DNA from: Picosynechococcus sp. PCC 7117
GTDB lineage: Bacteria > Cyanobacteriota > Cyanobacteriia > Cyanobacteriales > MRBY01
NCBI RefSeq assembly: GCF_001693275.1
Contig: NZ_CP016477.1
Coordinates: 1,240,001 to 1,304,000, forward strand
Direction of reading: 5' to 3'
DNA length: 64,000 nucleotides
Shown here: positions 7,505 to 13,094 of the stretch, in pieces
How positions within the stretch are numbered: position 1 is the stretch's first letter
Layout: the number at the start of each line of letters is the position of its first letter
The notes under the pieces: model-generated
Seen by the model: the letters and a program-made list of their open reading frames with translations, nothing else
What the model was told of the DNA's origin: nothing
Databases searched by the model: none
Program-made: the position numbers and the translations under genes

Positions 7505-7759
7505 ATGAATCAACGCACGATTGAAGGAACTTGGGAAGAGATCTTACAGCATGCATCTGAGTTGACTGGACAGCAAGTAAGGTTAACGGTTTTATCTCCT
7601 AAAGCATTACAGCCTCAGCAGCCAATGACCTTAGAACAGACACTACAAGATAGAATTGGCCGAGTTCAGTTTCAGCCCTCTGATCTATCTGCACGGACAA
7701 AGGACGCTTTTGCGGATATGTTGGCAGATAAAAATCAGTCATGGGGTCATCGTTCATGA
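7505..7759 (+). CDS. Probable antitoxin of a VapBC-like pair
   Basis: 84 residues from the Met at 7505; an upstream in-frame Met at 7454 gives an unlikely extension. The N-terminus (about 1-35) has the form T-I-E-G-T-W-E-E-I, and the C-terminal half is charged and probably unstructured until it binds the toxin. I do not recognise a standard AbrB, RHH or Phd/YefM signature. The antitoxin call rests on size and on the ATGA stop/start overlap with the PIN-domain gene, which implies translational coupling. This is typical of type II toxin-antitoxin operons. Confidence 0.6.
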   Translation: MNQRTIEGTWEEILQHASELTGQQVRLTVLSPKALQPQQPMTLEQTLQDRIGRVQFQPSDLSARTKDAFADMLADKNQSWGHRS

Positions 7760-8163
7760 CTCTATGCGATGCTTCGGCTTTGATTGCCCTGATTAACCGG
7801 AACGATAACAATCAAAGTCGTTGTGCGGCTGTACTTTCAAGACTTCAAGCTCCATTGGTCACAACTTGGTCTTGTTTTACTGAGGCGATGCATTTGCTAG
7901 GTCGGTATGGTGGATGGCTCGCGCAGCAGGAGTTATGGAGTTATATTGCCGACGAGCTTCTTGTATTGCACGTATCTAACGGGGCAGAACAGAGACGAAT
8001 GCAACAGCTAATGGAACAGTATCGGGATGTGCCGATGGATTTGGCGGATGCTTCCTTAGTCACTGCGGCTGAAGTTTTGAATCAAAAGACAATTTTTACC
8101 CTTGACCGAGATTTTTACATTTATCGCCTTCCCGGAAATCAACCTTTTGATGTTGTTCCTTGA
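7756..8163 (+). CDS. PIN-domain ribonuclease toxin, VapC-like
   Basis: 135 residues from the ATG at 7756, which overlaps the upstream stop as ATGA. The PIN fold is clear: Asp5 in LCDASALI, Glu43 in FTEAMHLL, Asp95/Asp98 in MDLADASL and Asp117 in FTLDRDF. These form the expected four-acid Mg-binding site. VapC toxins cleave tRNA or rRNA loops, but the target here cannot be read from sequence. The pair contains no HIP1 site, unlike most neighbours, which fits mobile accessory DNA but is weak evidence over 0.7 kb. Confidence 0.8.
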   Translation: MTLCDASALIALINRNDNNQSRCAAVLSRLQAPLVTTWSCFTEAMHLLGRYGGWLAQQELWSYIADELLVLHVSNGAEQRRMQQLMEQYRDVPMDLADASLVTAAEVLNQKTIFTLDRDFYIYRLPGNQPFDVVP

Positions 8164-8549: not shown

Positions 8550-9992
8550 ATGTTTACTCTCAGAGATGTTTTTTTTGCCTTTATCCTAATTGCGTTACTG
8601 GTTTTAGCGGGGCGGTATGTTAAGCAAAAAGTGCGCTGGATCCAGAGGCTTTATTTACCTGAATCCATTGTGGCTGGTGTATTAGCACTGCTGCTGGGGC
8701 CTCAAGTTTTGGGGGCGATCGCCACTGCTATTTCTGGGGGAACCTCGATCCTATCAGATGGGCTTTTTTCAGAACCGATTCGCGCCGTTTGGTCACAATC
8801 GCCAGGGATCTTTATCAATATTGTCTTTGCGGCCCTATTCCTTGGGGAAGCTATTCCACGACCAAAAGATATTTGGACAAAAACGGCTCCTCAAGTCGTC
8901 TTTGGTCAAACATTGGCCTGGGGTCAATATGTGGTGGGAATCCTGGTAACCCTGCTGATTTTGATGCCGCTATTTGGCGTAAATCCCATTGCTGCTTGCT
9001 TGATCGAAATTGGCTTTGAAGGAGGGCATGGCACCGCTGGCGGGATGGCTGAGACGTTTACTGAACTGGGCTTTGAGGCGGGTGCGGATCTAGCCTTGGG
9101 CATTGCCACGGTGGGCATTGTTGGCGGAATTATTGCGGGTACAGCGCTAGCGGATTGGGGCCGGCGTAAGGGCCATGTCACATCTTTTCAGAAAGCTGTA
9201 GAAGATTTAGACGGTGTGCCAGAACTGACGGAAACGGAATCCCCTGAGGTGCGCCGTCGTCGCGCCCAACTCATGCGTAATCTACTGATTGATCCTCTGT
9301 CGATTAATTTTGGCATTGTCGGCGCAGCGATTGTGATTGGTTGGCTTATTTTAGAAGCACTGGTTTGGGTGGAGTCGGTTGCCTGGGGCCAAACGGGATT
9401 TGAAGTCATCTCCTATGTGCCGTTATTCCCGATGGCTCTGATTGGCGGCATCATTGTGCAGTTGGTAATGGAACGTCTGGGGTTAGCGCCTTTGATTATT
9501 CGCTCGCTGATGAGTAACATTGCGGGTTTAGCTCTGGATGTGGTGGTGGTGACAGCATTGGCATCCATTTCCCTGAGTGTAATTGGTTCCAACTTGGGTG
9601 TATTTACCATTTTGAGTGTCGTAGGCATCACCTGGAATGTGGTGATGTTTCTTTATTTCGCCCCACGCATTTTTCCGAGTCATTGGTTTGAAAAAGGAAT
9701 CGGCGATATGGGTCAGTCGATGGGGGTGACGGCTACGGGAATTTTATTATTGAGAATGGTCGATCCGGAGAACCGCACCGGTGCGTTTGAGAGTTTTGCT
9801 TACAAACAACTATTCTTTGAGCCGATTGTCGGGGGTGGATTATTCACAGCGGCAGCTCCGGCGCTTGTTGTTCGGTTTGGCCTGGTACCAGTGCTATTAC
9901 TCACGGGCGGGCTGTTGATCTTTTGGTTGGCGATGGGATTCTTGATTATCCGCCAAAACAAGCAGCAAAGACGGCGATCGCCTTCCCTTTGA
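8550..9992 (+). CDS. gltS: Sodium/glutamate symporter, GltS (ESS) family
   Basis: 480 residues from the Met at 8550 (MFTLRDVFFAF); the longer frame from 8475 adds a non-family leader. The protein is almost wholly hydrophobic, with roughly ten or more membrane spans. The family hallmark G-F-E-G-G-H-G-T-A-G-G occurs in the first half, near residue 160, and a charged cytoplasmic loop with an Arg-rich patch (about 205-250) splits the two halves. GltS proteins import glutamate with Na+. This member is longer than the approximately 400-residue E. coli protein, so substrate range may differ. It ends 8 bp before the convergent gene. Confidence 0.82.
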   Translation: MFTLRDVFFAFILIALLVLAGRYVKQKVRWIQRLYLPESIVAGVLALLLGPQVLGAIATAISGGTSILSDGLFSEPIRAVWSQSPGIFINIVFAALFLGEAIPRPKDIWTKTAPQVVFGQTLAWGQYVVGILVTLLILMPLFGVNPIAACLIEIGFEGGHGTAGGMAETFTELGFEAGADLALGIATVGIVGGIIAGTALADWGRRKGHVTSFQKAVEDLDGVPELTETESPEVRRRRAQLMRNLLIDPLSINFGIVGAAIVIGWLILEALVWVESVAWGQTGFEVISYVPLFPMALIGGIIVQLVMERLGLAPLIIRSLMSNIAGLALDVVVVTALASISLSVIGSNLGVFTILSVVGITWNVVMFLYFAPRIFPSHWFEKGIGDMGQSMGVTATGILLLRMVDPENRTGAFESFAYKQLFFEPIVGGGLFTAAAPALVVRFGLVPVLLLTGGLLIFWLAMGFLIIRQNKQQRRRSPSL

Positions 9993-10000
9993 GATTGTAT

Positions 10001-10750
10001 TTATTGAGGCGATCGCCCTTTCCACCATTTCACTAAGGCTTCATAAAGAGCACGATCGGCGCGGTCATCGGTATGTCCATGGTTGGAATACCCCAGATCT
10101 ACGATGCGACCTTCTAGGGTGAGCCAGTGCTTTTTCCCTTTGGCGGAAACATAGCAGATGCGCGTTCGATTCACCCAGTAGGATCGTTTCGCTCCTTCTT
10201 CGCGCATTCGGTGCCAAGCAATATCGGCGATCGCCTGGCGCGGTAACCACAGACAATTATGTCGCCCTAGATTATCAATCAAGCGGCCCACCAGCCCATG
10301 GGACAACAACACAATCCCGTAGCCTTCTTCTTTCCGTTTGCGCAGTCGAGAGCAATGCCAGGTGCGGTAGAACGATTGAGCCAGATCCCAGGCCATATAG
10401 GTGCAATAGCCGATCAAAACCGCCAAGATTAGGAAGAATAGAAGCGTAAACCCCAGTTCCGGTAAGCTCTGTTGGGTCAGGGTTTGCCAAAGTCGCCCAT
10501 AGCTGGCGGGTTTACGAATGGCCTGGGAAATTAAAGCTGGCACCAGTCCCAGAATGGGCAATGCATACATAACCATAAAGGGCAGTAAGCAAATTTGGAT
10601 AAACCAATCTGTTTGTGCGGGTAAAAACTGACCTGGCAGATGGTGAGCGCTCCCCAAGCGAAAAGCGGTTTGATAGGGTTCTGGCAGTGCGATCAGGGGA
10701 TATAGCCCTGCCGGGGGAAATGAATTGGATGAAGACCTTAGTTGCTGCAC
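10001..10750 (-). CDS. Two-span membrane protein of unknown function
   Basis: 249 residues. Two hydrophobic stretches at about 50-72 and 98-122 suggest a pair of membrane spans. The C-terminal 120 residues are polar and basic, with an RKRKEEGYGIVLLS start and aromatic strands that look like a small cytoplasmic beta-rich domain (TRICYVSAKGKKHWLTLEG). I do not recognise the family. It is convergent with gltS and divergent from the AquI genes. Confidence 0.6.
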   Translation of the reverse strand: MQQLRSSSNSFPPAGLYPLIALPEPYQTAFRLGSAHHLPGQFLPAQTDWFIQICLLPFMVMYALPILGLVPALISQAIRKPASYGRLWQTLTQQSLPELGFTLLFFLILAVLIGYCTYMAWDLAQSFYRTWHCSRLRKRKEEGYGIVLLSHGLVGRLIDNLGRHNCLWLPRQAIADIAWHRMREEGAKRSYWVNRTRICYVSAKGKKHWLTLEGRIVDLGYSNHGHTDDRADRALYEALVKWWKGRSPQ

Positions 10751-10906
10751 AAGTCAGGCTCTGTCGCTATGGTTAGAGGAGCAGATAGCATTGAGTGTAC
10801 TGTACCGGAATAGCTTACCTACCGTTATCCCATCTGCAATATCCATAAAAGGCGATCGCCTACCCTTCGAGAGACTTGATCCACTCAAGGTAGTATTGTC
10901 CTGATC

Positions 10907-10939
10907 CCTAAGAGATAATCTTTAGGTGAGCTGTACAAT
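10907..10939 (+). promoter_or_regulatory. Candidate promoter and imperfect palindrome before aquI
   Basis: A CCTAA-N10-TTAGG inverted repeat (10907-10926) sits just upstream of a TACAAT -10-like box at 10934-10939, about 16 bp before the methyltransferase start. The arrangement would suit a repressor site, but no controller-protein gene is seen. Confidence 0.35.
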
Positions 10940-10954
10940 AACACAAAATTCATA

Positions 10955-11701
10955 ATGGAAAAAAAACTGATAAGCCTATTTGCCGGAGCTGGTGGCATGG
11001 ACATCGGCTTTCACGCTGCTGGCTTCAGTACGGCGGTAGCTGTGGAACAAGATCCGTCTTGCTGCAATACTCTAAGGCTTAATATGCCGGACACTCCAGT
11101 CATTGAAGGCGACATCACCTCAATTACAACACAGGCTATCTTAGAAGCGGCAAAGGTCAATCCTCTTGAAATTGACCTAGTTATTGGTGGCCCCCCTTGC
11201 CAAAGTTTCAGCCTAGCAGGTAGACGTATGGGAATGGATGATCCGAGAGGAATGCTGGTACTTGAGTTTCTACGTGTAGTCAGGGAGGCATTGCCAAAGT
11301 GTTTTGTTATGGAGAATGTCAAAGGAATGATCAATTGGTCAAAGGGAAAGGCTCTTGAGGCTATCATGACAGAAGCATCGCAGCCTATAAAATACGCTGG
11401 AAAAGAATATAAATACGCTGTTTCGTATCATGTCCTAAATGCTGCTGATTTTGGTGTTCCGCAATTTAGAGAAAGAGTATTCATCGTAGGTAATCGTTTG
11501 GGCAAAACATTCCAATTTCCTGAACCAACTCATGGGCCTAGCAACCAAGCGAGACAGATAGATCTTTTTGGCAAGCAGCTAAAACCTTACAAAACTGTTC
11601 AAGATGCAATTAGCACTCTCCCCCCTGCAACCCCTCCTTCAGCGATGGCACTAAGAGTTTCGCAGACTATAAAAGATAGGATAAAGAATCATGGATATTA
11701 A
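10955..11701 (+). CDS. aquIMA: AquI-type DNA cytosine-5 methyltransferase, alpha subunit
   Basis: 248 residues carrying the N-terminal motifs of a C5-cytosine methyltransferase: SAM-binding FAGAGGMDIGF (9-19), catalytic GPPCQS with Cys82, ENV at 120-122, and QFRER at 170-174. It lacks motifs IX and X, which are in the next, overlapping frame. From literature knowledge, M.AquI of Agmenellum quadruplicatum (Synechococcus PCC 7002) is a two-polypeptide enzyme with subunits of these lengths, recognising CYCGRG. I therefore read this as a natural split, not a broken gene. The stop at 11701 overlaps the beta start by 11 nt. Confidence 0.92.
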   Translation: MEKKLISLFAGAGGMDIGFHAAGFSTAVAVEQDPSCCNTLRLNMPDTPVIEGDITSITTQAILEAAKVNPLEIDLVIGGPPCQSFSLAGRRMGMDDPRGMLVLEFLRVVREALPKCFVMENVKGMINWSKGKALEAIMTEASQPIKYAGKEYKYAVSYHVLNAADFGVPQFRERVFIVGNRLGKTFQFPEPTHGPSNQARQIDLFGKQLKPYKTVQDAISTLPPATPPSAMALRVSQTIKDRIKNHGY

Positions 11702-12110
11702 AAACGTTCATATCAAAAATCACGAACAAACAGCTCATGCACCTTCCACTCTAGAAAAAATTCGTAAAGTCAAACAAGGGGGTAAACTCTCAGAACAGAC
11801 AAAGACATTTGGTTCAACCTACCGCAGGTTAGATCCGAACCAGCCATCTCCTACAGTGACCCGTAGTGGTTATCGAGATTTTATTCATCCTTTTGAAGAT
11901 CGAATGCTCACAGTTCGTGAACTGGCTTGTTTGCAAACCTTTCCCCTTGATTGGGAGTTTACCGGAACTCGACTTGATTCTTATAGTAGTAAACGTAAAG
12001 TGGCGATGACTCAGTTTGGACAAGTGGGTAATGCAGTACCACCGTTACTTGCTGAAGCTGTTGCTAAAGCGGTTAGCGAACAGCTTCTGGATGTCATTGA
12101 TGAAAAATAA
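11691..12110 (+). CDS. aquIMB: AquI-type DNA cytosine-5 methyltransferase, beta subunit
   Basis: 139 residues in the +1 frame relative to alpha. It supplies the missing C-terminal half: motif IX, RRLDPNQPSPTVTRSG at about 45-60, followed by R-x-L-T-V-R-E-x-A-x-L-Q-x-F-P, and motif X GNAVPP at 113-118. Variable sequence at the end of alpha and the start of beta corresponds to the target-recognition region. Alone it has no SAM site or catalytic Cys, so it must pair with alpha. Its end overlaps the endonuclease start by 11 nt, so translation of all three genes is probably coupled. Confidence 0.92.
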   Translation: MDIKNVHIKNHEQTAHAPSTLEKIRKVKQGGKLSEQTKTFGSTYRRLDPNQPSPTVTRSGYRDFIHPFEDRMLTVRELACLQTFPLDWEFTGTRLDSYSSKRKVAMTQFGQVGNAVPPLLAEAVAKAVSEQLLDVIDEK

Positions 12111-13050
12111 TCAGTTTGTAAACAATTTCAGTGACCTTGTGACGACAAAAGATGCTCGCAGAAGTGGTTTTCTTGAATATGCTCTTCGTCGCAATAAAGA
12201 GTCTATTCCATTTATCGATAAGGCGAAAGCTCTACAAGTATCTCTTCAGAAGAATACAAAGTGTGCAGAGGATATTCTCAAACTCTATGACATCCGAGAA
12301 ACACTCATTGAGGCAGCGGGTGTATCTGTCAAGGCGAAGGCTCACCTCGATGACATGGACAAAAATGAAATTCTTGCAGGCTTTGTTAAGGAGGTTCTTG
12401 CACCTTGTGGCAAAAAGTATATCGATGAGATTGTCTATCGTTACTTGCTCACACTTGGAGATGCTCTTGGTGGTAAAATGCGCAACATTGTTGGTTCTAT
12501 CGCAGAAGAGAAATTCGTCAGATTTATCGTTGCCCAGTTACAGGTGCATGATATTGAATTTGAACTATTTCCAAAACGTTCGCAATGGATTTCAAACAAA
12601 AACTATAGAGCTGAGATGGCTGCACGAACGAAAGCCTTAAGATGGAAAAATAAAACAACTTATCGATCTCTAATTTTCAACATTAATGTTCCACAGGTCA
12701 AAAAGAATATTGATATCGTGCTGCTAAATGACAAGATTGAAGGAGTAACCTCGTCTATTTTGGCTAATATCCTTAACGATAAGAATAAGTATCTTGCCAT
12801 CGGTGAGTTAAAGGGCGGAATTGATCCAGCCGGGGCAGATGAACATTGGAAAACGGCAAATACAGCTCTTAGTAGAGTAAGAGATTCTTTCAAGAACAAA
12901 ATCCACTTATTTTTCATTGGGGCTGCGATAGAAACCAGTATGTCGGCAGAGATTTACGAACAATGCCAGACAGGTGAACTTAGTAACGCAGCAAATCTCA
13001 CTGTTGATAATCAATTATCTGCATTGTGTGAGTGGCTAATAACGCAATAA
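12100..13050 (+). CDS. aquIR: Type II restriction endonuclease AquI, AvaI/BsoBI family
   Basis: 316 residues from the ATG at 12100, overlapping the methyltransferase end. The C-terminal third has the AvaI/BsoBI signature ELKGGIDPAGADEHWKTA at 236-253. Together with Asp205 this gives a D-...-E236-x-K238 catalytic site of the PD-(D/E)XK type. BsoBI and AvaI cut C^YCGRG, consistent with the adjacent AquI methyltransferase. The length matches the roughly 315-323 residues of its relatives. The frame advances +1 again. The longer frame from 12016 is not needed. The gene ends 44 bp before the U32 start chosen here. Confidence 0.92.
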   Translation: MKNNQFVNNFSDLVTTKDARRSGFLEYALRRNKESIPFIDKAKALQVSLQKNTKCAEDILKLYDIRETLIEAAGVSVKAKAHLDDMDKNEILAGFVKEVLAPCGKKYIDEIVYRYLLTLGDALGGKMRNIVGSIAEEKFVRFIVAQLQVHDIEFELFPKRSQWISNKNYRAEMAARTKALRWKNKTTYRSLIFNINVPQVKKNIDIVLLNDKIEGVTSSILANILNDKNKYLAIGELKGGIDPAGADEHWKTANTALSRVRDSFKNKIHLFFIGAAIETSMSAEIYEQCQTGELSNAANLTVDNQLSALCEWLITQ

Positions 13051-13094
13051 CTTTACAAAATCAAACCCGATCGCCTCTCTATTTTGATAAATCT

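Follow-up and report, generated by a model that had tools for sequence, protein, structure and literature searches.

An AquI-type split C5 methyltransferase in Picosynechococcus sp. PCC 7117 and the constant overlap between its two genes

A split methyltransferase and an endonuclease in successive frames

The window, a 64,000-nt stretch of the 3.43-Mb genome of Picosynechococcus sp. PCC 7117, contains three consecutive genes on the forward strand. The first two, alpha (positions 10955-11701, 248 aa) and beta (11691-12110, 139 aa), match different parts (2-177 and 207-323) of the Pfam C5-methyltransferase profile PF00145, which has a length of 324. The third, R (12100-13050; 316 aa from the ATG at 12100), encodes a type II restriction endonuclease of the BsoBI/AvaI family, which matches PF09194 (BsoBI; E = 3.9e-106) and, over almost its full length, the solved BsoBI structure 1dc1. 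The three frames are intact and follow each other in successive +1 steps. At the first joint, an 11-nt overlap (11691-11701) comprises the beta start codon and the G-Y-stop of an alpha C-terminus that reads I-K-N-H-G-Y-stop; the second overlap (12100-12110), of 11 nt with the R start at ATG 12100, is kept in another genome of the genus (G209) and is variable elsewhere. Alternative in-frame R starts exist at TTG 12097 (14-nt overlap), at ATG 12091 (20 nt) and further up, and the ATG equivalent to 12100 is the sole R start listed in G209. An AGGA within alpha (11678-11681), 9 nt 5' of the beta start, resembles a Shine-Dalgarno sequence and may function as one. The geometry described in the initial annotation, with subunits of 248 and 139 aa and two 11-nt overlaps with +1 steps, agrees with these frames and with the layout in G209.

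In PMC3404938, M.AquI, which recognizes CYCGRG, is described as two polypeptides cut in the variable region, with motifs I-VIII apart from motifs IX-X; the enzyme is also named in PMC5944983. By analogy, alpha would contain motifs I-VIII and the first half of the variable region, and beta would contain the second half and motifs IX-X. The window shows two features of the AquI type, a two-frame cut in the variable region between the N- and C-terminal motif blocks and a BsoBI/AvaI-like endonuclease adjoining the split methyltransferase. The separate Pfam halves and the family of R thus bear out the assignment to an AquI-type enzyme made from the bare sequence, as well as the remark that the split is already known from this type of restriction-modification system. 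Our comparison with the AquI system (M.AquI alpha/beta and R.AquI), which has the same cut site and a BsoBI-like R, relies on the published layout; its subunits are presumably of 248 and 139 aa, equal to those found here. Another C5 methyltransferase made of two polypeptides, M.EcoHK31I, is cut differently, because its small subunit has only motif IX (PMC3404938).

The PF09194 family and the match to 1dc1 also relate the locus to the AvaI/BsoBI systems, whose methyltransferases act on N4. In all ten cyanobacterial PF09194 loci outside the split clade that we inspected, from 13 full-length ones fetched, R lies beside a TSPPY protein of 311-499 aa, and the three of these scanned matched N6_N4_Mtase and not a C5 family. 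The split C5 unit is, therefore, one of at least two methyltransferase types paired with PF09194 endonucleases. Among 20 stretches around cyanobacterial PF09194 genes, AquI-like alpha/beta genes were present in one, that of G209. The genome of PCC 7117 also contains two more C5-methyltransferase-like matches (G000:C1:893691-894254 and G000:C5:7392-7685, with open frames that span 431 and 338 aa), one of them on a plasmid-like contig; a 140-aa ORF in the window (7741-8163) resembles, by eye, a PIN-domain (VapC-like) protein.

Among six genomes of the genus, only G209, besides the window's own, contains a close beta (91%). It shows an identical alpha-beta-R layout with both 11-nt overlaps, with protein identities of 89, 91 and 84%, respectively, ca. 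83% identity at the DNA level and different flanking DNA. In a further genome, G081, similarity to the left flank extends as far as about window position 10748 and similarity to the right flank sets in again at about 13068, the two matches being ca. 147 kb apart and in opposite orientation; we did not find a clean, precise empty site in a genome of the genus. The stretch in between (10749-13067, approximate extent) was likely acquired, which suggests that alpha-beta-R is a cassette inserted at a rearranged site and probably a mobile one. A 3.3-kb stretch from a small plasmid-like contig of the same genome shows 91-95% identity, over 41-99% of its length, to plasmids from Picosynechococcus sp. 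PCC 8807, 7002, 73109 and 7003.

Distribution, endonuclease partners and phage-contig copies

We scanned named genomes with two peptide patterns and an alignment of beta, a procedure that would miss members with neither pattern, and confirmed 38 relatives from 108 pattern matches, with 73-82% identity in the best segment. Alpha and beta are in different frames in all 38, which belong to the phyla Cyanobacteriota, Pseudomonadota, Bacteroidota, Bacillota, Fibrobacterota and Kiritimatiellota, plus one unassigned record. A window-like R follows in 19 of them, and the two scanned by Pfam were PF09194; three of these loci (L071, L077 and L098) are cyanobacterial. In the other 19, the same kind of split alpha/beta precedes an XcyI-like protein from a different Pfam family, which resembles that of locus L067 in every case (blastp, L067 included) and matches PF09571 in the six examples scanned. 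Two of these six also match PF09194 below the cut-off (E = 0.0045 and 0.031), and the two endonuclease types might possibly share a distant core. The type of endonuclease follows the tree of the split methyltransferases. The loci with XcyI-like partners (positions 6406-7443 in L067, and 18 others) come from Bacteroidota (12), Bacillota (4) and Pseudomonadota (3), many from the rumen according to their titles.

The split type is rare, appearing in 2 of 386 cyanobacterial genomes and in 1 of 395 and 1 of 398 genomes around two other hosts, which in the last two sets are the chosen centres themselves. A broader alignment of beta over these three sets, with matches listed at E values up to 1e-15, did not reveal any fused close homologue among the loci and matches listed. 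Split genes scored 248-265 bits and every other match among those listed scored at most 81.5 bits; these non-split matches occupy open frames of at least 350 aa. Likewise, the cyanobacterial alpha matches outside the clade, among the matches listed, are all but one in open frames of at least 330 aa. A fused relative, named in the initial annotation as evidence that would speak against its reading, was thus not found, with two frames in 38 of 38 loci and no fusion among the matches listed. In collections of isolated phages and plasmids, all beta matches (61 and 276 records) were below 60% identity; Halogranum virus HGTV-1, where the beta match touched two features, was rejected as a split case because it contains a single 314-aa methyltransferase. 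A DNA search of plasmids yielded four partial matches covering 8-9% of the query, three of them to endonuclease genes.

Alpha/beta pairs also occur in six viral contigs, five of which share one joint and are treated as a single type (L103, at 9241-10420), with the sixth as a second type (L104, at 9241-10444). PHROGs comparisons identified four of five proteins in a contig of the first type (terminase large subunit, portal, UvsX-like recombinase and clamp loader) and two of five in the contig of the second (DNA polymerase and a further DNA methyltransferase; none of the five is structural), where a DNA ligase adjoins the alpha/beta pair. The terminase family PF03237 had no match in three phage contigs. 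The phage pair groups in the tree as the sister of both Picosynechococcus copies (support 100/96). We did not find a BsoBI-like R within 1.2 to 10 kb downstream of the viral alpha/beta genes, nor, in either of the two types, an XcyI-like protein encoded by a nearby ORF. This suggests that the phage copies are two-subunit methyltransferases for self-protection.

The sequence CYCGRG appears 14 times in the 64-kb window, versus 49-66 expected, and 9 and 31 times in the sampled phage contigs, versus 63-92 and 57-66 expected, respectively. Such scarcity fits pressure from AquI-type systems, weakly, since GYGCRC is scarcer still in the phage contigs, with no occurrence in either of the two (L103, L104, L136-L143; ca. 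200 kb sampled) and 26 in the window.

The two joints compared

In all 42 distinct loci (the window, G209, the 38 genome loci and the two phage-contig types), alpha and beta overlap by exactly 11 nt; these loci are related by descent and do not represent 42 independent events. They span six bacterial phyla, two endonuclease partners and two phage-contig types with neither endonuclease seen adjoining, and alpha diverges within the split clade down to ca. 50% identity. The beta start codon is ATG in 40 loci and TTG in two; some loci have further starts up- or downstream, and the one giving 11 nt is the only start common to all.

Within the overlap, alpha keeps the tail residues (H/Y/F)-G-(Y/F/H) and its stop codon (TAA in 38, TGA in 3 and TAG in 1), with Gly at position -2 in all 42 loci. 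The third base of codon -3 is always T (CAT in 26, TAT in 14 and TTT in 2), and C was never seen there, versus 14.4 cases expected from own-gene usage in a naive estimate that ignores kinship; at codon -1, the third base is C in eight loci. The Gly codon, for its part, uses all four third bases (GGA 18, GGC 14, GGT 6 and GGG 4), so that beta residue 2 becomes D, A, V or G. The base completing the start is thus fixed and the next third base is free, indicating that the alpha tail and the beta start are kept and that beta residue 2 is not. A Shine-Dalgarno-like core of 4-6 nt precedes the beta start by 7-11 nt in 22 loci, is weak or badly spaced in 11 more and is absent from nine. In 30 of the 42 loci, the beta start is somewhat more accessible than control sites, and no RNA structure concealing it was seen.

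The beta/R joint provides an internal control. We compared 21 operons with a window-like R (those of the window, G209 and 19 loci) and used for R the start closest to its conserved N-terminus. The overlap measures 11 nt in nine of them (the window, G209, L062, L063, L064, L066, L068, L069 and L086), several of which have additional R starts further upstream; it is 8 nt in two, ambiguous (8, 14 or 17 nt) in one and 1 nt in three (or 4 nt in two of these). In the remaining operons the genes abut (three) or are separated by gaps of 1 nt (two) or 6 nt (one), and the frame of R relative to beta is +1 in 14, 0 in four and +2 in three. The beta/R joint has, therefore, drifted, whereas the alpha/beta joint has not. 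The nine operons with 11 nt are scattered over three separate parts of the tree, so this may be the older beta/R state. In this phase an overlap cannot measure 2 or 5 nt (PMC10666635), which leaves 8, 11 and 14 nt as the shortest choices, and since only nine of the 21 operons have 11 nt, its repetition in the window is largely a coincidence. The initial annotation had seen in the two equal overlaps a single device, an idea that does not agree with one joint being invariant in 42 of 42 loci and the other having 11 nt in only 9 of 21.

What holds the alpha/beta joint

Taken together, we consider it highly probable that the locus is a probably mobile AquI-type restriction-modification cassette with a two-chain C5 methyltransferase, whose split is old and whose joint is locked by shared letters. 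Both the stop of alpha and the start of beta would have arisen in a single ancestral event, inside the same 11 nt, and would have been kept in place ever since because the alpha tail (H/Y/F)-G-(Y/F/H) and the beta start codon share letters. Beta would initiate at its own start inside alpha, from a ribosome-binding site also within alpha; an own start, with the spacing locked by the shared letters, is the simplest account of the joint. By analogy with M.AquI, alpha (the catalytic half) and beta (the distal half of target recognition plus motifs IX-X) would assemble into one C5 methyltransferase that protects CYCGRG, with the BsoBI/AvaI-like endonuclease cutting unprotected sites.

Selected translational coupling, in which ribosomes terminating on alpha restart on beta, setting the alpha:beta ratio and never producing beta without alpha, could operate together with the shared letters, and we give it somewhat less than an even chance. 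It agrees with a spacing that is invariant in 42 of 42 loci and with alpha and beta being subunits of one complex; complex subunits are overrepresented among gene pairs spaced by -8 to +10 nt (PMC10666635). According to a review (PMC12548453) and a study (PMC10666635), coupling is efficient between about -4 and +3 nt, or spacings between -8 and +10 nt are taken as predictive of it, so that the spacing of -11 falls outside the range; longer overlaps weaken coupling, including in Escherichia coli tests (PMC12548453), as likewise reported in PMC10666635. Nevertheless, coupling is good at -10 nt in a chloroplast pair cited in PMC12548453, and drops to about half at +2 nt. PMC10666635 also gives the reason why point mutations cannot shorten an overlap of this phase to -4 or -1 nt. 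The shared letters, however, also account for a fixed joint, no structure hiding the start was seen and the adjoining beta/R joint drifts. Coupling may thus exist, yet it is unnecessary to explain the pattern of the joint.

A bolder and rather unlikely extension would make the joint a selected control element, by which beta is produced only on messages of alpha that have just been read and at a low ratio, so that it limits the methyltransferase. Large phages would have taken the unit from an AquI-like system to shield CYCGRG sites of their own, and phage and host subunits might even exchange partners.

The remaining alternatives fare much worse. The initial annotation proposed that the beta/R overlap delays the endonuclease relative to the methyltransferase, and the gene order and the proximity of the R start to the beta stop in all 21 operons are in line with it; however, the overlap is not conserved, and R starts from 17 nt inside beta to 6 nt after its stop, joints so close that they predict co-expression, which makes the delay very improbable. 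Even less credible, by a little, is a programmed +1 frameshift yielding some fused enzyme. Beta is in the +1 frame, a conserved NHxxTAH-like stretch lies within a few codons of the joint and a slip inside the overlap itself is compatible with the sequence; against this, the ATG/TTG start, not needed for frameshifting, is kept in all 42 loci, the beta frame is closed within two codons upstream of that start in 14 of them, and there is no conserved slip site with overlapping open frames, because the last sense codon (TAT, TAC, TTC or CAC) and the stop (TAA, TGA or TAG) vary. Lastly, a sequencing error or the recent decay of a fused gene, conceivable because C5 methyltransferases are normally single-chain, as in the long cyanobacterial frames above, is refuted by the same joint in G209 (ca. 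83% DNA identity) and in every other locus and by the lack of any fused gene near the clade, so that the split is real, as first annotated.

The frozen joint and the phage copies are what this analysis adds; the split itself is known. Among the titles and abstracts listed, from a literature largely without subscription papers, we found no description of a conserved overlap in M.AquI. Split enzymes are usually viewed as accidents or engineered tools. In this family, the length of the alpha/beta overlap is constant to the nucleotide down to ca. 50% alpha identity and across phyla, endonuclease families and phage contigs, and it provides a clean natural test of what fixes an overlapping gene joint, coupling of translation or shared coding letters.
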